Source: Oryzomonas sagensis (lineage in GTDB: Bacteria > Desulfobacterota > Desulfuromonadia > Geobacterales > Pseudopelobacteraceae). Taken from it: a stretch of 64,000 nucleotides of DNA. Below are positions 82-9,734 of the stretch, piece after piece. A program made the position numbers and the translations under genes. Under the pieces are notes generated by a model. It was not told where the DNA came from. It worked only from the letters and a program-made list of their open reading frames with translations, and searched no databases. Position 1 is the first letter of the stretch. The number at the start of each line of letters is the position of its first letter. The DNA lies in assembly GCF_008802355.1 (NCBI RefSeq), contig NZ_VZRA01000001.1, positions 194,980 to 258,979 of the forward strand, given 5' to 3'.

Positions 82-1134
82 TCAGGCGCCGCCGGCGAAC
101 AGCCGCTTCTGAAACCGGAAGGCCACGTTGACCAGACCGATCATCACCGGCACCTCCACCAGCGGGCCGATCACGGCGGCAAAAGCGGCCCCGGAATTGA
201 GCCCGAACACCGCCACCGCCACGGCGATGGCCAGCTCGAAGTTGTTGCTGGCAGCGGTGAAAGCCAGGGTGGTGGTCTTGCCGTAGTCGGCCCCCAGCCG
301 CTTGCCCATCCAGAACGATACCAGGAACATGACCACGAAATAGATCAGGAGCGGGATGGCGATGCGCAGCACGTCCAGGGGCAGGTGCACGATCAGTTGC
401 CCCTTGAGGCTGAACATGACCACGATGGTGAAGAGCAGCGCCACCAGGGTGATGGGGCCGATCCGGGGGACGAAGTTCGCGTGGTAGCGTTCCTTGCCCA
501 CCAGTTTCAGGCCGACCAGACGGGTCAGGGCCCCGGCGATGCAGGGAATACCCAGGTAAATGAAGACGCTCTTCGCGATCTGGCCGATCCCCACATCCAC
601 CACCACCCCTTTGAGACCGATCAGCGGCGGCAGTACGGTGATGAAAAACCAGGCGTAGACGCTGTAGAACAGCACCTGAAAGATGCTGTTGAAGGCCACC
701 AGCCCGGCGGCATACTCGGTGTTGCCCTTGGCCAGCTCGTTCCAGACGATCACCATGGCGATGCAGCGCGCCAGGCCGATCATGATCAATCCCACCATGT
801 ACTCCGGCTTGTCCGGCAGAAAGACCGCCGCCAATACGAACATCAGCACCGGCCCGATAAACCAGTTCTGCACCAACGACAGCCCCAGCACCTTCCCGTT
901 TCGAAAGACCCGGGGCATCTCCTCGTACTTCACCTTGGCAAAAGGGGGATACATCATCAGGATCAGCCCCGCGGCAATGGGGATATTGGTGGTGCCGACC
1001 CGAAAGCTGTCGATGAAGCCCTCCACCCCCGGCACGAACCAGCCGAGCCCCACCCCCAGCGCCATGGCGGCGAAGATCCACAGGGTCAGCCAGCGGTCGA
1101 GAAATGAAAGTTTCCGGGATACATGTTCGCCCAT
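82..1134 (-). CDS. acr3: ACR3-family arsenite efflux transporter
   Basis: Inner-membrane carrier predicted to export arsenite (As(III)) in exchange for protons. The 350-residue product has about ten hydrophobic segments and the ACR3 signature around Cys124 ([20 protein letters not shown]), the membrane-embedded Cys needed for transport in characterised ACR3 proteins. A conserved Glu lies in the last third ([16 protein letters not shown]). I chose the ATG at 1134 because AGGAG lies 8-9 bases upstream; 24 extra codons upstream are open but unsupported. The gene is divergent from a Cys-rich MarR-type regulator, and the shared intergenic region holds a long palindrome, so arsenite-responsive control is likely. 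Family assignment is secure. Substrate specificity is inferred from family and context. Confidence 0.93.
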
Positions 1135-1189
1135 GGTGTGCGCTCCTAAAATCGAGATTGATCCATAACCGAGCCTGTCACCATGATGT

Positions 1190-1224
1190 ACATAATTTAG
1201 TTGCAAAATGCAAATAAATTATGT
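1190..1224. promoter_or_regulatory. 35-bp near-perfect palindrome, predicted operator of the acr3/marR divergent promoter
   Basis: The 35 bases form an inverted repeat with only two mismatched pairs: outer arms ACATAATTTA / TAAATTATGT and a core TTGCA-AAA-TGCAA at 1201-1213. It is far more AT-rich than the flanks and sits between two divergent genes, as expected for an autoregulatory MarR-type operator. A second TTGCA-N3-TGCAA site lies before hgcA at 1705-1717. Confidence 0.75.
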
Positions 1225-1250
1225 AGCGTTATTTCCCAGGAGAACAATGA

Positions 1251-1721
1251 ATGGGAACAATCAGGGAAGAACTACAGATATTCGTGCGCCGTTTCGGCCT
1301 GTTGAACGCCTCCTGCTGCGACGAATGCTGCGGCGAGCAGGTGTCCATGGTGCAGAGCCACATCCTGTTCGAGATCAGGAGGATGGGGCGACCATCCATG
1401 CAGCAGGTGGCCGAGGAATTGGGCATGGACGTCACCACCTTCAGCCGCCAGGCCAAAAGCCTGGAGGGGAAGGGCCTCATCACGCGGCAGATTTCGCCCG
1501 ACGACCGGCGGGTAAGCCTCCTGGGGTTGACCGCCGGGGGGCGCGAGGTACTGAAAAAGATCGACCGTTACATGACGGCGACACTTGAACGGGTCTTCTC
1601 CCACATGAGCGGCTTCGAGCGGGACACGGTGGTCAGGTCGCTGGAACTCTTGAACGAGGCCGTGGCCAAGACTGGCGACGACGCTTCACCGCAGGAGGGC
1701 AAGATTGCATGTTGCAACTAA
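1251..1721 (+). CDS. MarR-type winged-helix regulator with Cys-Cys-x-x-Cys-Cys sensor motif
   Basis: Predicted transcriptional repressor of 156 residues. The middle carries a MarR-like winged helix (MQQVAEELGMDVTTFSRQAK as recognition region, then the DDRRVSLLGLT wing). The N-terminal helix has Cys22, Cys23, Cys26 and Cys27 (SCCDECCGEQ) and the C-terminus ends Cys154-Cys155-Asn, a layout suited to binding thiophilic ions such as As(III), Sb(III) or Hg(II); ligand binding is an inference. The ATG at 1251 has AGGAG eight bases upstream. The gene is divergent from acr3 and ends 20 bases before the presumed hgcA start, so it is likely the first gene of the hgcAB operon and its regulator. It is not a classical ArsR by sequence. 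Confidence 0.85.
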   Translation: MGTIREELQIFVRRFGLLNASCCDECCGEQVSMVQSHILFEIRRMGRPSMQQVAEELGMDVTTFSRQAKSLEGKGLITRQISPDDRRVSLLGLTAGGREVLKKIDRYMTATLERVFSHMSGFERDTVVRSLELLNEAVAKTGDDASPQEGKIACCN

Positions 1722-1723
1722 AT
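1705..1723. promoter_or_regulatory. Second TTGCA-N3-TGCAA operator-like site, before hgcA
   Basis: TTGCATGTTGCAA (1705-1717) shares its TTGCA/TGCAA arms with the operator core at 1201-1213. The 12-base run TTGCAACTAAAT (1712-1723) is the exact reverse complement of 1195-1206 in the first site. It overlaps the stop codon of the MarR-type regulator and ends 18 bases before the hgcA ATG at 1742. Binding by that regulator is predicted from the repeat alone. Confidence 0.55.
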
Positions 1724-1741
1724 GACGGAACAGGTAGGCCC

Positions 1742-2896
1742 ATGAAGATCACGAGCATCCGCAGGGTCACAGAGGCGGACCGTACCCCGGCCGCCTCCGC
1801 CTGCGGCGACGTCTCCGGTGACGGCCAGGACAAGCCACCTTGCTGAGGCCCCCCAACCTCCGCCGGGGGCGGAGCAATTACGGACAAGGTGCCCGGTTTC
1901 ATTGAATGGCTGGAGACCCCGGCCGGGCGGGTCCCCAGGATCACGTCGAAACTTGGGCTCAAAGACCACCTGGGCGCCTGCAAGGTCCGGTGGGGCATCG
2001 GCCGCATGAGCTATATGGTGCCGCCCGGCCTCTACGCCATCGGCCGACCGACGCCGGAAGACCCGGTGCTGGTGACCGCCAACTACAAGATGAGTTACGA
2101 CATCATCCGTCATACACTCTCGGAGCGCAACCTCTGGTTGCTGGTGTTGGAGACCTACGGCATCAACGTCTGGTGCGCGGCGGGTAAAGGCACTTTCGGC
2201 ACCGGCGAAGTGGTGCGCCGGGTCGCGGCCACCGGCCTGGCCCGGGTCGTCAACCACCGCCGCCTGATCCTGCCGATCCTGGGGGCGCCCGGCGTGGCGG
2301 CCCACCAGGTAGCCCGGCGCTGCGGCTTTTCGGTCAGCTATGCGGCCATCCGGGCCGCCGACCTGCCCGAGTACCTGAACAACGGCATGGTCACTACCCC
2401 GGCCATGCAGCAGTTGACCTTCACCCTCTACGAGCGGCTGGTGCTGGTGCCGGTGGAGTTGGTCATGGCCCTCAAATCCGTCGCCATCATCGCAGGTGTC
2501 GTGTTGCTGCTCGTAGCCGCACTAGGCGGCCTCACGGCGGGCGTTACGGTCCTTATCGCCTATGTGGGTGCGGTCGTGACCGGGACCGCCGTCGGGCCGC
2601 TGCTCCTCCCCTGGCTCCCCGGCAAAAGCTTTTCCGTCAAGGGTGTCGTCGCCGGGCTGATCTGGAGCGGGGCATTCTATCTTCTTGCCGACGGCCCCGC
2701 CTGGGGCATACCGACAACCATCGCGCTCTTTCTGGCGTTGCCCGCGGTGAGCGCCTTCCACACTCTTAACTTTACCGGGTGCAGCACCTACACCTCCCGT
2801 TCCGGAGTGAAGAAGGAGATGCGCATCGCCCTGCCTGCCATGGGCGGCGCGCTGCTGGCGAGCGTGGTCTTGCTGTTGGCGGGAAGATTTCTGTAA
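1742..2896 (+). CDS. hgcA: Mercury methylation corrinoid protein HgcA, with in-frame TGA (candidate selenocysteine) at codon 35
   Basis: HgcA carries a methyl-cobamide and transfers the methyl group to Hg(II), making methylmercury with HgcB. The cap-helix motif Asn-Val-Trp-Cys-Ala-Ala-Gly-Lys is intact, with the cobalt-liganding Cys at codon 145 (2174-2176). The corrinoid domain is followed by about five membrane helices and the conserved NFTGCSTYTSRSG stretch. From the ATG at 1742 the frame is open for 385 codons except for one TGA at 1844-1846 (codon 35) in the context Pro-Pro-Cys-TGA-Gly-Pro-Pro. A hairpin with a GGG loop follows (1858-1874). Reading TGA as selenocysteine gives 384 residues. 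If translation starts instead at GTG 1889, the product is 335 residues, but that start has only a distant GGAG. HgcA identity is secure; readthrough is a hypothesis. Confidence 0.9.
1844..1874 (+). promoter_or_regulatory. In-frame TGA plus SECIS-like hairpin in hgcA
   Basis: After the TGA (1844-1846), CTCCGCC (1858-1864) pairs perfectly with GGCGGAG (1868-1874) around the loop GGG (1865-1867). The loop begins 18 bases after the TGA. Bacterial SECIS elements are known as stem-loops just 3' of the UGA with a G early in a small apical loop at roughly this distance. In GC-rich DNA a 7-bp stem can arise by chance, so this is supportive but not decisive. Confidence 0.45.
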
Positions 2897-2914
2897 GCAC
2901 CAAAGGAGCGAGTG

Positions 2915-3205
2915 ATGAAAGGCTTCCGATATTTGCAAAACGTGGTCACCCTGGAACTTGACCAGGCAGTCTGCATCGGCTGCGGCAGGTGCCTGGAGGT
3001 CTGCCCCCACCAGGTATTCTCCCTGGCGGAGAAGAAGGCTTCCCTCGCGGACCGGGACGCCTGCATGGAGTGCGGCGCCTGCGCCCTCAATTGCCCGGTC
3101 AAGGCCATCACGGTGGATGCCGGAGTCGGCTGCGCTTCGGGGATGATCAACGAGTGGCTCCAGGAACGCAAGCTGCGCGCGCCGAGCGGCGGTTGCTGTT
3201 CCTGA
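2915..3205 (+). CDS. hgcB: HgcB, ferredoxin-like partner of HgcA
   Basis: Small iron-sulfur protein that supplies electrons to HgcA to reduce its corrinoid and may pass Hg(II) to it. Two [4Fe-4S] motifs are complete: Cys20, 23, 26, 30 and Cys50, 53, 56, 60. Cys73 (VGCASG) matches the extra conserved Cys of HgcB, and the C-terminal pair Cys94-Cys95 (GGCCS) is the family hallmark. The product is 96 residues. The ATG at 2915 has AAAGGAG six bases upstream and is preferred over GTG 2912. It lies 18 bases after hgcA, so the two are almost certainly co-transcribed. Confidence 0.96.
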   Translation: MKGFRYLQNVVTLELDQAVCIGCGRCLEVCPHQVFSLAEKKASLADRDACMECGACALNCPVKAITVDAGVGCASGMINEWLQERKLRAPSGGCCS

Positions 3206-3251
3206 TCCTTTGCGGGACTGTCGTCAACCAACACCACACACGGAGGACATC

Positions 3252-3548
3252 ATGTTGCCGGGACAACAGCAGAAGGCGTTCGGAGAATTTTACGATACGG
3301 TCAGGGAAAATCGGATTCTCGACCCCAAGACCACGCTCCTGCTCCACCTGGGGGCTGCCATGGCGCTCGGCTGCTCCCCCTGCATGGAGTATTACCTGGG
3401 GCAGGTGGAGGGGGCCGGGATCACGGCCGAGGAGATCGGCGCCGTGCAGGGGGTGGTGATGGCGGTTTCTGCCGGCAAGGTCAACGCCCAACTCGGCGAG
3501 GTAGAGCGTCGCATACGGAAAGAGCGGAAGGAAACGAGCCCGGCATGA
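3252..3548 (+). CDS. AhpD-like carboxymuconolactone decarboxylase family protein
   Basis: A 98-residue all-helical protein of the AhpD/CMD fold with the redox motif Cys41-Ser-Pro-Cys44 (ALGCSPCMEYYL), which in AhpD relatives acts as a dithiol in peroxide or thiol chemistry. GGAGG lies five bases before the ATG at 3252. It follows hgcB by 46 bases on the same strand and probably belongs to the hgcAB transcript. A link to thiol or metal redox chemistry is inferred only from context. Confidence 0.85.
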   Translation: MLPGQQQKAFGEFYDTVRENRILDPKTTLLLHLGAAMALGCSPCMEYYLGQVEGAGITAEEIGAVQGVVMAVSAGKVNAQLGEVERRIRKERKETSPA

Positions 3549-3598
3549 TGAACCGCTAATTTGAGCGGCCCACAGATAATAGCCATAAGGAGGGTACC

Positions 3599-4465
3599 GT
3601 GTCCGATCGACAAAGAGAGAAAGCAGAGGCATTTCTCAGGCTTCATCAAGGTCCGGCGACCCTGGTTCTCCCCAATGCCTGGGATGTGGTAAGCGCCAGG
3701 ATATTCGAGCAGGCTTCATTTCAGGCCATCGGCACGACAAGCAATGCCATTGCCGCCTCCCTCGGTTACCTGGATGGGGAGCGCATCCCATTTTCGGAGA
3801 TGGTGGCGGTGATCGAGCGCATCGCTCAGCATACCGATCTCCCGGTCAACGCCGATATTGAGTCTGGTTATGGCATGGATATCGCCGCCGTGGCCGGGAC
3901 GGTCAGGAGCGTGATCAAGGCCGGTGCCGTGGGGATCAACCTAGAAGATGCCACTCGCGATCCCGCGCAGCCGCTCTTTGAACCGGACTTTCAGTGCGAA
4001 AAACTGAAAGCCGTCAGGGAAGTCGCGAACACCCTCGATATGCCACTGGTTATCAATGCGCGGACCGACACCTACCTGGCTCCTTTCCATGACCCGGAGG
4101 CGCAGTTTCAGGAGACGGTGAAACGGGCCAATGCCTATCGCGAGGCGGGGGCCGATTGTATTTTTGTCCCCGGCAGACTCGACGGCGAACTGATAGCGCG
4201 TCTGGCCGCCGCGATCCATGCACCCTTCAATGTTTTCGCCACCCCCGTTACCCCCAGCATTCCCGAACTGAATAAAATGGGCGTGGCGCGCCTGAGCATC
4301 GGCCCCGGGGCGTTCCGGGCGGCGTTGGCAGGCACCGTAAAGATTGCGACCGAACTGGCCGGACAGGGGACCTATAAAACCCTTTTCGGCGAGGCTTTGA
4401 CGAAAGCGGAGGTCGAGAACCTGCTCAACCGCGCAAGCTCTTATTCGGAAAGTGCGGCGAGTTGA
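3599..4465 (+). CDS. Isocitrate lyase / phosphoenolpyruvate mutase superfamily protein
   Basis: A 288-residue TIM-barrel protein of the ICL/PEP-mutase superfamily. Family landmarks are NAWDVVSARIFEQ near residue 27, the metal/substrate loop NADIESGYG near 82, and the strand INARTDTYL. The isocitrate-lyase catalytic KKCGH motif is absent, so it is not isocitrate lyase. Relatives include oxaloacetate decarboxylase/carboxyphosphonoenolpyruvate mutase-like proteins, and the substrate is unknown. The GTG start at 3599 is supported by AAGGAGGG four bases upstream. It is 50 bases downstream of the AhpD-like gene and may be the last gene of the hgc operon. Confidence 0.85.
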   Translation: MSDRQREKAEAFLRLHQGPATLVLPNAWDVVSARIFEQASFQAIGTTSNAIAASLGYLDGERIPFSEMVAVIERIAQHTDLPVNADIESGYGMDIAAVAGTVRSVIKAGAVGINLEDATRDPAQPLFEPDFQCEKLKAVREVANTLDMPLVINARTDTYLAPFHDPEAQFQETVKRANAYREAGADCIFVPGRLDGELIARLAAAIHAPFNVFATPVTPSIPELNKMGVARLSIGPGAFRAALAGTVKIATELAGQGTYKTLFGEALTKAEVENLLNRASSYSESAAS

Positions 4466-4553
4466 TTCCTGTTTTTTTGTTTGTACGTTTGGCGATTTTA
4501 ACCCACCCCGGCTTTGGCAGACGCCCAAGTGAGTGACTATCCCCGTGCCGTTT

Positions 4554-5957
4554 CTACGGCTTGGCCTGTTCTTGCCATGCTGCAAATTCCAACGGGCGGA
4601 TGCCGAAACGTATCGCATTCCCTTCATGCAGGTTTTCAAACTCTTCGAGGACAAGCTCGACAAACTTGTTATGGTCTTCTGCGGCTACCGAGGAGGGAGT
4701 GACTGCCGTCACTGTTTCACTGGTGGGTCGTTGCTGCTGTTGGACAATGGCCCTGACTGTTTCGCTGAGTGCCTGCCGGTACCTCAAACGGAAGATGTCC
4801 GGCGGCACGAGTTCCTGGCGAATTGCCAGATAGTGCTGACAAGAACGTTCATAGGCCCAAACAAAGACATCGCGCAACAGTTCGGTCCTATTCAGTTCGT
4901 ACACCCCGAGCACGGCTTCTACATACGCACGTGCCGGAACGTCGATGAATGAGAGCGGACAGAGATTGTGCCGGATCAAGGGGATATTGGCGGCCAACCT
5001 GGAGACGCGCTTGTTGACGTCTTCAAACGGTTGCAGGTATGGCAGATGCACCATGAGAAAGAAAGCCTGCTCGAATGGGTCCCTGATCTCCTGGGTCGTG
5101 GAGAGAATTATCCTGAAAAGTTCTTCTAGCCGTTGCGGCATGGCAATCGGCAGGTAGACGCTTCCGCCGATGTCAACCGGACGGTGCCGAATCTTTCCAC
5201 AGGCGCTGCTATGTGACAGAAGCCCATCGGAAAGGAGTGCATGCAGGTTTAAGATGGTAAATGGGGTAAAGTCAACCAGATCAGCCTCGTTTACCAGCAA
5301 CTCGATAGCAGCCTTGTGGTTGAGGATCATCTGTGTTTCAAAGGCGTCTTTCCCTTCGGCCGCCTGGCCGAATTCAATCAACCGCTGTGTGTCGAGGCGG
5401 CTATAGGTGTTGCCTTCAAGTCGTGAAGAGGCCCATGAAAGATCAATCAGCAGCCGGTTCAGAATATCTCTGGCAAAGGTTCCAGCCGGACGTTCATCTT
5501 CGGGTGGTGTACCGATCTGACGAAGCTGTTCCCGCAGTTCGACCGGCAGATACGAAGTTTCATTGGGATAATACGCTTCCAGAAAACTCTGATTATACCC
5601 GATTGGTTTGCGCATCTGTCGGGGTTGCCGAACATACGCTTTTATTTCTTCGCTTTCAGACGACAGAGGGATGTATAACTCAAGTGAGGCCTCCGAAGCA
5701 ATGGATGTGGATACCGCGTCATCTGCGTAAATATCTCTGATTACTGGCTGATATATGCGCCCTTTTTTCTCTCCAACCAGGGCAATGCGCCCCCAGTCAT
5801 GCAGCACCGCCAACCGGCGTAGCAAGGTCCGCCGCTGTATTACAAGTCCTTGCACAGAAAGTTCAGCTTCCAACACAGAGACGCCGACACCTTCCTGGTG
5901 CCCGGCAATGCACTTTTCAATTAATGTCAACTCGTTATCGGCGATATCCTTGATCAC
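4554..5957 (-). CDS. Fic-domain protein with non-canonical catalytic motif and N-terminal inhibitory helix
   Basis: Fic enzymes transfer AMP or other nucleotide moieties to target proteins. In this 467-residue protein the Fic core motif reads QPFEDVNKR (309-317) rather than HPFxxGNGR: the catalytic His is Gln and the first Gly is Val. The auto-inhibitory motif (Ser177-x-x-x-Glu181-Gly182, WASSRLEGN) precedes the core, as in class II Fic proteins. Residues 1-75 look like a winged-helix DNA-binding region. Codon use is visibly less GC-rich than in the neighbours, suggesting transfer. Loss of the catalytic His makes classical AMPylation doubtful; I recall QPFxDxNKR-type members forming a subfamily, so this need not be a random defect. 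Confidence 0.85.
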   Translation of the reverse strand: MIKDIADNELTLIEKCIAGHQEGVGVSVLEAELSVQGLVIQRRTLLRRLAVLHDWGRIALVGEKKGRIYQPVIRDIYADDAVSTSIASEASLELYIPLSSESEEIKAYVRQPRQMRKPIGYNQSFLEAYYPNETSYLPVELREQLRQIGTPPEDERPAGTFARDILNRLLIDLSWASSRLEGNTYSRLDTQRLIEFGQAAEGKDAFETQMILNHKAAIELLVNEADLVDFTPFTILNLHALLSDGLLSHSSACGKIRHRPVDIGGSVYLPIAMPQRLEELFRIILSTTQEIRDPFEQAFFLMVHLPYLQPFEDVNKRVSRLAANIPLIRHNLCPLSFIDVPARAYVEAVLGVYELNRTELLRDVFVWAYERSCQHYLAIRQELVPPDIFRLRYRQALSETVRAIVQQQQRPTSETVTAVTPSSVAAEDHNKFVELVLEEFENLHEGNAIRFGIRPLEFAAWQEQAKP

Positions 5958-6138
5958 CTTGTTACCCCATGGCCTTTATTTTCCGACACTATTAATGACA
6001 CATTTTGTCTGAAAAATCAATTTAACAGACAGAATGATTGTCGTATAAAAATACTCTCAATAGGTGTGACAATGTCGTATTATTCGCCCAGTCATAATCA
6101 AATGAAATTTCACGGCGGAAACGCCGCAGGAGGTAAGG

Positions 6139-6942
6139 GTGCCGGAGCTTCCCGAGGTGGAACTGACCCGACGCAGGCTGGAACCGGATCTGACGGGCAA
6201 GAGGGTTGAAGGTGTGGAGGCGCGGGTACCGAAGCTCCGCCTCCCCATTCCCGAAGAGCTGGCAACAGTCCTGCCGGGGCGGACCATCCGCTCCGTGGCA
6301 CGGCGGGGCAAGTACCTGCTGCTGGACTGCGAGGCCGGGTGGCTCATCATCCACCTGGGCATGACCGGCTTTCTCCGGTTCCTCCCCCACATCACGCCGC
6401 CCGGCAAGCACGATCATCTCGATATCCGTTTTGCCGGCGGCTCGGCGCTCCGCTTCCACGACCCGCGCAAATTCGGCACCGTGGCCTGGACAACCGACGC
6501 CCCGGCAGGGCATCCGCTCCTGGCCGGGATCGGCCCGGAGCCGCTTACCCCCGCCTTCGACGGCGACTACCTCTTCCAGGCGAGCCGTTCCCGCAGGGTT
6601 GCGGTGAAGCAGTTCATCATGAACGGGGCAATCGTTGCCGGGGTCGGCAACATCTACGCCAACGAGGCGCTGTTCCGCGCCGCTATCCGCCCCGACCGGC
6701 ACGCCTCCTCCCTCACCAGCCCTGAGTGCGAGCGGCTGGCCCTCACCATCCGGGAGGTGTTGCAGGAGTCCATTGACCAGGGGAGCACCTACCGGGTGGC
6801 GGAGAATTCGGTCGCCTACCACCCCCTGGAGTTTGCCGTGTATGGCCGTGGCAAGGGGATGTGCGCCCGCTGCAACGGGGCGCTGGAAGAGATCAGGCTG
6901 GGAAACCGGAGCACGGTATTCTGTCCCCGCTGTCAACGGTAG
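6139..6942 (+). CDS. mutM: Formamidopyrimidine-DNA glycosylase (Fpg/MutM)
   Basis: Bifunctional base-excision repair enzyme that removes 8-oxoguanine and other oxidised purines and cleaves the abasic site. The 267-residue product starts with the catalytic N-terminus Pro-Glu-Leu-Pro-Glu-Val, has the helix-two-turn-helix segment VAGVGNIYANEALF, and ends with the C-terminal zinc finger (CARC...CPRC). It starts at GTG 6139 behind GGAGG (6129-6133); initiation here exposes the required N-terminal Pro after Met removal. Confidence 0.96.
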   Translation: MPELPEVELTRRRLEPDLTGKRVEGVEARVPKLRLPIPEELATVLPGRTIRSVARRGKYLLLDCEAGWLIIHLGMTGFLRFLPHITPPGKHDHLDIRFAGGSALRFHDPRKFGTVAWTTDAPAGHPLLAGIGPEPLTPAFDGDYLFQASRSRRVAVKQFIMNGAIVAGVGNIYANEALFRAAIRPDRHASSLTSPECERLALTIREVLQESIDQGSTYRVAENSVAYHPLEFAVYGRGKGMCARCNGALEEIRLGNRSTVFCPRCQR

Positions 6943-7020
6943 GCTCCGAGTCCGCGCAAACGCCCCACCACCAACTACCTCATGTTACAAGGAATCCAAT
7001 CATAGCCAATGCGCCAACAC

Positions 7021-7047
7021 AAAAAGGGCTGCCGGTCGGGCAGCCCT
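7021..7047 (-). terminator. Intrinsic terminator of the GH3/hydrolase operon
   Basis: AGGGCTGCC (7025-7033) pairs with GGCAGCCCT around a short loop, and on the minus strand the stem is followed by TTTTT. It is placed 27 bases past the stop of the minus-strand GH3-family gene. Confidence 0.8.
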
Positions 7048-7073
7048 CGTGGATTCAGGCGTAAATAGCCGTT

Positions 7074-8651
7074 TCAACCCCGCCCGACATACTCCCGCAG
7101 GCTGGTAATCATGGACGAATCAGGCGTCGGATCGATGTGCGGGATCTTGGTCTGCCCCCCCAACTTACCCCGCACCATCCTGGACCACTCGTAGATCGTC
7201 CCCTCCCCCGCCGTCACCACCTGGGGCGGATTGATGCGTCCCTGGCTGCGGAAGGTGGCATAATCCGCGTTCATGCCGCACAGGGCGGCATCCAGCAGGT
7301 GGGCGGCCTGTTCCCAGTTTCCCTCATCCGTCGTGGCCAGGACCCACACATGCCGTCGGGCCTGCACGTCGGCACCTACCATGAACTCCCGCACGCTCCA
7401 GCTTCCGAAGGCGTTCAGCTCCGCAATGACCCGTTCCACCTCCCCTTGGGTCACCTTTTCCTCCAGCTTGTCCAGAAAACGGTCTCGGCCGGTGAACTCG
7501 ATGAAGTGCGGGGCAAGGGAGGTAAACCGGATGGTGTCGCCGATGTGGTAGCGCCACAGCCCGGAGCAGGTGCTGAGGATCACGGCGTAACGCTGGCCCG
7601 TCTGTACCTCTTCCAGCGGGATCGCCGCGGCGTCCCGCGCCGGCCGCCCCTGTTCGTCCAGATCGTCGAAGCGCACGAACTCGAAGAACGCCCCGTAAAA
7701 GGGGGTCAGGCGCATCTGCGCGTCTCCCTGCCGCTGGAACGCCATGAAGGCCTCGGAGGAGGGGAGCAATTCCAGCAGGTTGGGGAGCCGGTCGTGGAAC
7801 AGCGCCTCGAATTCACTGCGATAGGGCTTGATGCTGGTGCCGCCGTGGATGATCAGCTCCAGGTGGGGCAGCAGCTCGGTCAGCGGCCTCCCCCCCATCT
7901 CGGCGCAGCGCTTCAGGAGCAGGAGAATCCAGGGGGGCACGCCGGAGATGACCCGAATCTCCGGGTCGCCCAGCAGCAGTTCGGCCATGGCCTGGAGCTT
8001 CTCCTCCCAGGGGAGGGCCGACACAGGGGCCTGGGGCTCCACGAAGGGGTCGAGCCAGCGGGGCCGGAAACGGAGCGTGAGGGCGCTCATGTCGCCGGAA
8101 CAGATACCTCCCCCCATATCGTTCAGTTCCGTGGAGCCGGACATGTAGAGGATCTTGCCGGAGCCGATGCGCGATGCCCTTTGGGTGGCCAGATAGCAGG
8201 CGATCATGTCCGTGGCAGCCCGGCGGTTTTCCTGGAACATCCGGTCGGAAAAGGGGATGTACTTGGTCGGAGCTGTGGTGCCGGAGGTTTCGCAAAACAT
8301 GCGCACCCTGCCGGGCCAGGTGACGTCATCCAGGCAAATCCGTTTTCTGCCGTCAATGCCGGTGCGGCAGCCGGCCTGGAAATAGTCGTTCCAGAAATCC
8401 TGGTAGGTACGGATCGGCACCAACTGCCGGAACCGCGCATAGGCTTGATCATAGGGGAGACGCGCCAGGACCGGGAAGTCGTGGTCGCGGCCGAAGCGGG
8501 TCCCGGCCGCCGTGCCGACGAGTTGCTGGAAGATGTCCCGCTGGGCTGCGAGCGGGTCGCGCTGGTGGAAGCGCCGGGCCCTAAAGGCGGCCGTCTGTCT
8601 GATGAGCCCCTGCACGGGGCCTGTCCGCAATGCCTGCCTGAGAAGGGCCAT
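7074..8651 (-). CDS. GH3-family acyl-acid amido synthetase-like protein
   Basis: A 525-residue adenylate-forming enzyme of the GH3 family, best known in plants for conjugating amino acids to auxin or jasmonate. The nucleotide-binding loop is present (TSGTTAPTKYIPFS near residue 125), as is the later CSGLWRYHIGDTIRFTS core, which matches GH3 proteins rather than acyl-CoA ligases. Substrates of bacterial GH3 proteins are largely unknown. The ATG at 8651 lies only three bases after the stop of the upstream hydrolase gene, so the two form an operon and may act in one pathway. Confidence 0.88.
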   Translation of the reverse strand: MALLRQALRTGPVQGLIRQTAAFRARRFHQRDPLAAQRDIFQQLVGTAAGTRFGRDHDFPVLARLPYDQAYARFRQLVPIRTYQDFWNDYFQAGCRTGIDGRKRICLDDVTWPGRVRMFCETSGTTAPTKYIPFSDRMFQENRRAATDMIACYLATQRASRIGSGKILYMSGSTELNDMGGGICSGDMSALTLRFRPRWLDPFVEPQAPVSALPWEEKLQAMAELLLGDPEIRVISGVPPWILLLLKRCAEMGGRPLTELLPHLELIIHGGTSIKPYRSEFEALFHDRLPNLLELLPSSEAFMAFQRQGDAQMRLTPFYGAFFEFVRFDDLDEQGRPARDAAAIPLEEVQTGQRYAVILSTCSGLWRYHIGDTIRFTSLAPHFIEFTGRDRFLDKLEEKVTQGEVERVIAELNAFGSWSVREFMVGADVQARRHVWVLATTDEGNWEQAAHLLDAALCGMNADYATFRSQGRINPPQVVTAGEGTIYEWSRMVRGKLGGQTKIPHIDPTPDSSMITSLREYVGRG

Positions 8652-8654
8652 GGA

Positions 8655-9734
8655 TCAGACCGCCATCTGGAGCAGGGGTGCCGAAAGTCTGCTGTACCAG
8701 CTTTCCAGCAGGGGGTTGTAGGCGTCGTGGTGGAAGATCATGGAGGCGTGGGGCACGCTGTCCTCTTCATTCTTTGATATGACCTTCTTCACCCGGCAGT
8801 TGGGAAACAGCTTGGTGTAGCGGCTCGAATCGGCGAAGAGCTCCAGGGTCGGCGACAGCGGCACAAGGATATCCCCCTCGTTCTCCGCCAAGAGCGTCAG
8901 CACCGGCCCGGCGAAGACCGAGCCGTCAAACTCGGGGAATTGAAGCTCCCGTAGCGCCTTGACCCGCTCGTACCCTCCCAGGGCCGAGGTATGGGCCAGG
9001 ACGTCCATGATCTTGCGGCGGATGGCCAGGTGCTTGCTGCTCAACACCCGGTTTTCGGCCCCGGCTGCGAACAGTGCCTGAAAGCAGCGCCGGGAGCGCT
9101 CCACCTGCTTCTCCAACTCGTCCCGCTTGGCCGGGTCGGCGGTGATGATCTTCTGCAGGCTGCTCTCCAGGAACCGGATGCCGTCCCGCTTCTCCCCCTT
9201 GGGGCGGATCAGGTCGTCGGTGCAGATCACCGGGCTGATCAGGAGCAGGCCGCGAATCTTCTCGTGAATCTGTTCGTCGGCCTGCCGGAGAAAATCCACC
9301 AGCAGGCCGGAACCGAAGCTGACGCTCATGATCAGCGGCTTGGTGCCCCCGGTGTGGATATCGTCGATCAGGTCGGACAGTTGTGCGGAAAACATCTCTG
9401 CCGAGAAGCCGTTACGGGGATAGTTGAAATAATAGATACTGCCGTACCGGCGCAGCAGCGGACGCTGGAACTCTATCGTTTCCGTGGCGTCCGGCACGAA
9501 ACCCGCGACCACGATGGTCGGCAGGGAACCGCCCCCCTTTTCCCGGAACAGTTGGCAGCGGACGCTGTGCATGCTGTGGATTTTCTTCATCTGGCTGAAC
9601 TCGCGGCGCCGGTCCCGCGGTGCGTAGGGTTTGATGGCCATGGAGCGCATGAGGCCGTGGGCCATGGTTGCTGCCGAAACAAGTACGGGGTGGGCCTCTT
9701 TCGCTGGGCCGCTCTTTAACGAAACGGACTTCAT
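8655..9734 (-). CDS. Alpha/beta-hydrolase-fold protein paired with GH3 enzyme
   Basis: The 359-residue product has the features of an alpha/beta hydrolase: a strand and oxyanion region TIVVAGFVPD near residue 72 and a nucleophile-elbow-like segment Ser-Val-Ser-Phe-Gly, where the first Gly of GxSxG is Ser. A late His (VPHASMIFHHDAYN) could complete the triad. No signal peptide is evident. The gene starts upstream of, and is tightly coupled to, the GH3-family gene. A hydrolase that reverses or supplies the GH3 reaction is one possibility, inferred from pairing only. Confidence 0.65.
   Translation of the reverse strand: MKSVSLKSGPAKEAHPVLVSAATMAHGLMRSMAIKPYAPRDRRREFSQMKKIHSMHSVRCQLFREKGGGSLPTIVVAGFVPDATETIEFQRPLLRRYGSIYYFNYPRNGFSAEMFSAQLSDLIDDIHTGGTKPLIMSVSFGSGLLVDFLRQADEQIHEKIRGLLLISPVICTDDLIRPKGEKRDGIRFLESSLQKIITADPAKRDELEKQVERSRRCFQALFAAGAENRVLSSKHLAIRRKIMDVLAHTSALGGYERVKALRELQFPEFDGSVFAGPVLTLLAENEGDILVPLSPTLELFADSSRYTKLFPNCRVKKVISKNEEDSVPHASMIFHHDAYNPLLESWYSRLSAPLLQMAV

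Follow-up and report, generated by a model that had tools for sequence, protein, structure and literature searches.

The mercury-methylation genes hgcA and hgcB of Oryzomonas sagensis, located in the 64,000-nucleotide stretch of genomic DNA analysed here (the window), appear to form one unit, marR-hgcA-hgcB-ahpD, in which a gene for a MarR-type regulator precedes hgcA and a gene for a small AhpD-like protein follows hgcB. In the reading to which we give about half of our confidence, and which was derived from sequence comparison, the AhpD-like protein would be an optional accessory, likely a reductase or metal-thiol exchange partner, and the PEP mutase-like gene located further downstream would be a bystander. 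A recurrent Cys/Sec gene behind hgcB thus provides a concrete candidate partner of HgcAB. According to the accessible parts of PMC11588087, HgcAB is the methylating complex, in which SAM methylates the HgcA-bound cobalamin and HgcB relays electrons; the two reducing equivalents are described as being of unknown origin. An initial annotation of this DNA had described both the methyl source and the redox partners of HgcAB as only partly known; the first part of that description is partly out of date, SAM having been reported as the methyl donor, and the second still agrees with the same portions of that source.

The features of the locus are collected in Table 1. The layout given in the initial annotation, with gaps of 18, 46 and 50 bases separating hgcA, hgcB, ahpD and the PEP mutase-like gene, proved exact, and the good ribosome-binding sites that it mentioned were recovered as AGGAG-, GGAGG- or AGGAGG-type sites preceding the genes.

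Table 1. Features of the hgcAB locus, in window coordinates, with profile scores and cut-offs in bits.
Feature	Position	Strand	Evidence or detail
acr3, ACR3-family arsenite efflux transporter	82..1206	-	TIGR00832 450.5, cut-off 282.8
MarR-family regulator, N-terminal CCDECC	1251..1721	+	PF01047 53.7, cut-off 24.6
hgcA, corrinoid protein for Hg methylation	1709..2896	+	NF040863 452.8 (obtained on the part from 1889), cut-off 275
In-frame TGA in hgcA, probable selenocysteine	1844..1846	+	residue 46 from the 1709 start, motif C-U-G-P
bSECIS-like hairpin in hgcA	1858..1874	+	CTCCGCC-GGG-GGCGGAG, 11 bases past the TGA
hgcB, dicluster ferredoxin, ATG start	2915..3205	+	NF040864 132.2, cut-off 99
AhpD/CMD-like gene, ATG start, 98 aa, CSPC	3252..3548	+	PF02627 40.0, cut-off 23
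Segment missing from the colinear O. japonica locus (L031)	3528..6101		blastn
PEP mutase/isocitrate lyase superfamily gene, GTG start	3599..4465	+	PF13714 286.6, cut-off 31.5
Fic-domain gene	4554..5957	-	PF02661 38.2, cut-off 24
mutM/fpg	6139..6942	+	TIGR00577 258.6, cut-off 203.3

The acr3 gene is divergent from the regulator gene; its start as listed is a TTG, with an inner ATG at 1134 as an alternative. A sequence scan of positions 1000-6200 detected no terminator-like or promoter-like site on the plus strand in the gaps on either side of ahpD (3206-3251 and 3549-3598). Over the whole scanned region, four terminator-like sites were found vs 5.2 in shuffles, one of them on the plus strand within the end of hgcA (2868-2884), and one promoter-like site vs 1.7 in shuffles, on the minus strand at 3605-3576; such scans are weak evidence in either direction. 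A scan of the window against Rfam at the gathering threshold gave no match. The short gap behind hgcB, together with the lack of a plus-strand terminator-like site within it, would fit co-transcription of hgcAB with ahpD.

The hgcA open reading frame as listed starts at a GTG at 1889. Further upstream, this frame continues as far as an ATG at 1709, which the initial annotation had missed, giving a gene of 395 codons; a further ATG at 1742 is an alternative start. A Shine-Dalgarno-like AGGAGGG (1693-1699) lies upstream of the ATG at 1709 and overlaps the end of marR. The extended frame contains a single in-frame TGA, in the context DKPPC-TGA-GPPTSAGGG. When the corresponding motif was surveyed by script in 71 of 73 named hgcA loci, a TGA occupied this place in 43 loci and a Cys codon in eight, the motif C-x-G-P as searched being absent from the other 20. 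A hairpin with at least 6 of 7 pairs accompanied 40 of the 43 TGA loci vs one of the eight Cys loci. The window genome (G000) also contains two SelB genes above the cut-off (C5:43308-44420 and C1:1051814-1052971) and three tRNA-Sec matches above the gathering score (C2:464003-464096, C4:151198-151291 and C5:45573-45666), one of which was also found by ARAGORN. Thus, a TGA where relatives have Cys, a SECIS-like hairpin behind it and the presence of SelB and tRNA-Sec in the genome indicate that HgcA of this organism is most likely a selenoprotein, and gene callers that stop at the TGA will truncate it. On contig 5 of this genome, a SelB gene and a tRNA-Sec lie within about 1.2 kb of each other.

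The translation of hgcA contains NVWCAAGKGTF, which carries the cap-helix motif that we take to be N-V-W-C-A-(A/G)-G-K, and that of hgcB contains both CxxCxxCxxxCP motifs, CIGCGRCLEVCP and CMECGACALNCP. In the accessible part of a recent review, HgcA (CU) and HgcB (GVGU) appear in a list of selenoproteins, with credit to Haft and Gwadz 2023 (PMC13188914). The selenoprotein nature of HgcA is therefore already in print, for other HgcA proteins. The window hgcA shares with the listed HgcA the TGA at C-U-G-P, whereas the window HgcB has Cys (GVGC) where the listed HgcB has Sec. Two hgcA copies were seen in each of two other genomes, namely G419 (C5:66277-67236 and C2:13913-14890, one of them with an AhpD gene behind it) and G488 (C227:2299-3240 and C252:22797-23741).

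The available portions of PMC7438021 and PMC10349881 describe hgcAB operons that have regulators of the ArsR, MarR or PrlF type and lie near arsenic genes, and they note a MarR gene upstream of hgcA in Geobacter daltonii. The window matches these operons in the order regulator-hgcA-hgcB with acr3 beside it and differs from them in the AhpD-like gene behind hgcB, a gene not named in those portions of the two papers. A relative of the window MarR protein with at least 59% identity, starting some 1.6 kb upstream of the hgcA 3' end, was present in 19 of the 73 hgcA loci, and the MarR-type regulator, with its CCDECC, is a candidate thiol or metal sensor for hgcAB, replacing ArsR. No paper linking AhpD to hgcAB, nor any combining hgcAB with carboxymuconolactone, was found in the literature searched, which held few subscription papers, so that a prior mention is possible. 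Within that literature and as far as the texts were accessible, hgcA and alkylhydroperoxidase/AhpD occur together only as separate table entries of PMC13188914, whose section on selenoprotein operons names Prx-like/AhpD-like clustering and no AhpD-hgcAB pairing; selenoprotein, arsenite methyltransferase and AhpD occur together in PMC13188914 and PMC9312934, and hgcAB and selenoprotein in PMC11588087 only.

The AhpD-like protein belongs to the carboxymuconolactone decarboxylase (CMD)/AhpD family, scoring above the PF02627 cut-off and carrying the CxxC motif, and it has the helical fold of this family (solved members 3bey, 1vke and 7y4r) in a predicted model with a pLDDT of 88.4 and four helices, all-helical. 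A fold search with this model returned CMD-family structures as the best matches, which were weak (best E 2.2e-3, TM about 0.6, none below 0.001), with unrelated folds further down the list. All ten rows of the search profile A1 share the motif GC.PCM, with Sec written as Cys. Peroxidase-active AhpD of M. tuberculosis presumably has proton-relay His residues around this site, one within CxxC and one four residues after it. The window protein has neither in its active-site stretch (GCSPCMEYYLG), so it need not be a peroxidase, and its assignment as alkylhydroperoxidase AhpD proper is not supported. The nearest named relatives, at 41-57 bits, are MduS (NF045649) and ArsM_AhpD_UU (NF041537), fusion selenoproteins in which an AhpD domain forms the C-terminal part of a methyltransferase, whereas the window protein is free-standing. 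Membership in the ArsM_AhpD_UU, MduS or GSU3128 selenoprotein families is not supported, the scores staying below the cut-offs (at most 47.8 vs 510, 57.1 vs 380 and 32.7 vs 110, respectively), and the NCBIfam release searched contains no separate model for the subfamily.

Homologues of the AhpD-like protein with at least 62% identity were present in eight genomes when 57 relatives were searched. Profile A1, built from ten members that are mostly hgcAB-linked and hence biased towards such rows, detected, at 100 bits or more, 15 places distributed over 14 of the 141 genomes of the order. Nine of these lie directly behind hgcAB (G000, G002, G004, G009, G024, G049, G085, G087 and G129), as judged by comparing AhpD and hgcA positions and reading the loci; G085 is included even though its hgcA and marR matches are broken up, apparently through poor assembly. 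The remaining six are found in G035, G058, G063 (two places), G100 and G048 (at a contig edge); the G058 gene stands in an arsM-ahpD arrangement, and acr3 is encoded on the opposite strand within roughly 1 kb of one of the G063 places. All 14 genomes with the AhpD-like gene contain hgcA, compared with 97 of the 141 overall (Fisher p 0.0039, kinship ignored). An AhpD place of 100 bits or more is missing from 83 of the 97 hgcA genomes of the order, so the AhpD-like gene is dispensable for Hg methylation.

In all nine loci measured, namely eight of the nine order places behind hgcAB (G002 being read as L031) plus that of G419 from the phylum sample, the spacing between hgcB and ahpD, stop codon to start codon, is 35-60 bases, 46 in the window, with a Shine-Dalgarno-like site. 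The AhpD-like gene follows hgcB in five of the 73 named hgcA loci (L031, L033, L040, L043 and L100, whose genomes account for five of the nine order places). Crude clustering of up to three ORFs behind hgcB per named locus yielded only two clusters recurring in at least three loci, the AhpD-like gene (five loci) and mutM (three), all others reaching at most two. Two other loci (L035:2015-2263 and L048:8002-8127) encode, about 1 kb behind hgcA, an AhpD-like protein of another kind whose end is rich in Cys (...SCC); the L035 gene comes after an ORF that by eye resembles a sigma factor.

Sampling 395 phylum genomes added 11 AhpD places scoring 99 bits or more, which brings the set to 26; weaker matches in the order (G062 and G096, 43-45 bits) and in the phylum sample (50-80 bits: G308, G416, G454, G312, G358, G161, G500, G476 and G463) are not among them. 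Only one of these 11 lies directly behind hgcAB (G419, with a second hgcA elsewhere in the genome) and one just before hgcA: in G290 (L189, 2399-5286), arsM, a TGA-form ahpD, hgcA and hgcB follow each other on one strand, which places arsenic and mercury methylation genes in a single cluster. The order arsM-ahpD-acr3 occurs in G272, the AhpD gene of G438 lies about 0.6 kb after merA (mercuric reductase), and the other seven places have no hgcAB, arsM, acr3 or merA neighbour. The arsM and merA assignments were confirmed by profile (ArsM, NF008823, 343-361 bits, cut-off 263; MerA, TIGR02053, 538 bits, cut-off 454.45). Twenty loci of order and phylum were read for their neighbourhoods. In total, the AhpD-like gene has a mercury or arsenic setting in 15 of the 26 places and stands directly behind hgcB in ten, while the probes used recognised no mercury or arsenic neighbour in 11 places within the stretches examined. 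Of 14 genomes with AhpD matches that were searched for hgcA, including those of all 11 phylum places, 12 have an hgcA match, 11 of them above the cut-off; G522 gave a weak match only (79.5 bits), and no hgcA match was obtained in G149 and G459. A plasmid collection held one relative, a Cys form of 48% identity from Photobacterium, in a record without annotation.

The varied neighbours (arsM, merA, acr3), the 11 places where no metal gene was recognised and the acr3 and MarR regulator genes flanking the window operon would also be expected if the AhpD-like protein were a general redox protein of metal or oxidative stress, associated with hgcAB through common regulators or islands and never acting on HgcAB. 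The many hgcA genomes of the order that lack it and the two genomes that have it without an hgcA match point the same way. Mere membership of an island, however, does not account for its position directly behind hgcB in ten of the 26 places, and its nearest named relatives are fusions to methyltransferases; we therefore regard a general stress function as a serious alternative that is somewhat less than probable. The initial annotation had named both downstream genes as candidates for accessory roles and had counted residence mostly away from hgcAB as evidence against such a role. For the AhpD-like gene, this idea is upheld in the order, where most places (9 of 15) are behind hgcAB, but not in the phylum sample (1 of 11).

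The AhpD-like gene of the window is the Cys form of a Cys/Sec family. An in-frame TGA is present in 15 of the 26 places, and the read-out places one in each case at the second Cys of CxxC (CxxU); one G063 place has a second TGA outside this motif. Of the ten genes located behind hgcAB, four are TGA forms (G009, G085, G087 and G419). A hairpin occurs at a fixed place after the TGA: in 16 sequences (14 free-standing TGA forms and two fusions, leaving out G063b and also G161, whose stretch is identical to that of G358), 89.3% of the cells pair and five of the seven pairs are changed on both sides. None of 500 shuffles, in which kinship among the sequences is ignored, reached the observed paired share, doubly changed pairs, doubly changed cells or covariation score, whereas the fifth measure, that of further pair types, did not stand out, its observed value being reached by 329 of the 500. 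Slid versions of the hairpin scored lower, and all ten Cys-form controls keep only two to five of the seven pairs.

A tree was built from 30 of the 32 AhpD rows, omitting G100 (a partial match) and G063b (the second G063 place); its rows are partly close relatives, its deep forks are weakly supported and it has three long end branches. Nine Cys-form rows group together with weak support (87/75), and five of the ten rows from genes immediately behind hgcAB make up a single clade (98/92). This clade is what would be seen if ahpD had been caught behind hgcB once and carried along by common descent, with no function in Hg methylation. The weak deep forks leave room for such a history, and against the three arsM/merA rows the hgcAB label is no more clustered in the tree than shuffled labels. 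Yet hgcAB-adjacent rows also come from G049, G009, G087/G085, G419 and G290, all outside the clade, and the gaps are short in those outside-clade loci that were measured, which makes a single passive capture an unlikely explanation.

We return to the accessory role, in which the AhpD-like protein is plausibly an optional thiol/selenol partner of metal(loid) methylation. Building on the observed gene order, conservation, Sec/Cys exchange, hairpins and arsM/hgcAB neighbourhoods, we infer its contact with HgcAB and the chemistry involved. The most likely use of the CxxC/CxxU site would be dedicated thiol/selenol-disulfide reduction or metal-thiol exchange. In this capacity, the protein would keep the Cys/Sec pairs of HgcA (C-U-G-P) and HgcB (the terminal CC) reduced; alternatively, it might carry Hg(II) or methyl-Hg between the pairs of the two proteins. 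Dithiol sites are too oxidising for the low-potential electrons that make Co(I), and on these general redox grounds the AhpD-like protein was judged unlikely to be a direct Co(I) reductase. The same subfamily may serve ArsM in other genomes, ArsM presumably needing similar help. ArsM enzymes depend on reduced cysteines, which would explain the same small protein behind both hgcAB and arsM. More tentatively, and with some doubt, the free-standing CxxU/CxxC family as a whole might be a redox or metal-transfer partner common to mercury and arsenic methylation. Its presence behind arsM would then tie the two processes together beyond their known regulatory link, and the hgcAB operon of some species would constitute a multi-selenoprotein organometallic system, with Sec in both HgcA and its AhpD partner.

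The PEP mutase-like gene, by contrast, is probably a bystander and not part of the methylation machinery. It is found behind hgcAB-ahpD in two of the 141 genomes of the order, G000 and G004, which belong to one genus, so that here the accessory role proposed in the initial annotation lost its ground. The protein matches the isocitrate lyase/PEP mutase superfamily over nearly its whole length, with 2ze3 and 4mg4 as the best-scoring solved sequences. It does not reach the equivalog cut-offs of PrpB (89.1 vs 354.4) or PEP mutase (59.8 vs 319.55), nor that of phosphonopyruvate hydrolase. The CGH motif, which we take to be the lyase motif of the PEP mutase/methylisocitrate lyase group, is absent from it. 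The low equivalog scores and the missing CGH leave the label of a C-C bond enzyme as a family-level guess.

Relatives of the PEP mutase-like gene have mixed surroundings. In G086, which is not among the hgcA-positive genomes, a relative of 73% identity is followed by ArsR-like and ArsM-like genes (L206:3744-5942; the ArsM-like protein is 44% identical to a profile-confirmed ArsM), and in G091 a relative of 41% identity, some 4 kb away from hgcB, has an ArsR-like gene as its neighbour; both ArsR-like genes were named by eye. The ars probes gave no match near the relative in G084 or near four of the five phylum relatives (40-52% identity), and only a weak, distant methyltransferase match in G437; the five plasmid records that were read, out of 26 with a match, have no arsenic- or mercury-named gene nearby, one of them having a MerR-family regulator. 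The G086 and G091 arrangements could be taken to mean that the enzyme genuinely takes part in metal(loid) methylation as an accessory, contributing C-C or C-element bond chemistry, which we consider very unlikely in view of its confinement behind hgcAB to one genus, its absence from the O. japonica, G003 and G001 loci, the ars-probe and plasmid results and the missing CGH motif. The comparison thus indicates that this neighbour can be left aside for now.

Comparison with the close relative O. japonica (HgcA 93% identical) delimits the segment that carries this gene. By blastn, window positions 90-3527 align with its locus at 94.4% identity (3,438 bases) and positions 6102-8999 at 87.8%, with nothing aligned between them. 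The segment holds the PEP mutase-like and Fic genes, and a Fic gene is also present in G004 (87%); the G003 and G001 loci have neither the segment nor ahpD. The simplest reading of these alignments would be an insertion between ahpD and mutM in two species, with loss of the segment in the relatives as the alternative. In relatives without the PEP mutase/Fic segment, mutM follows hgcB or ahpD.
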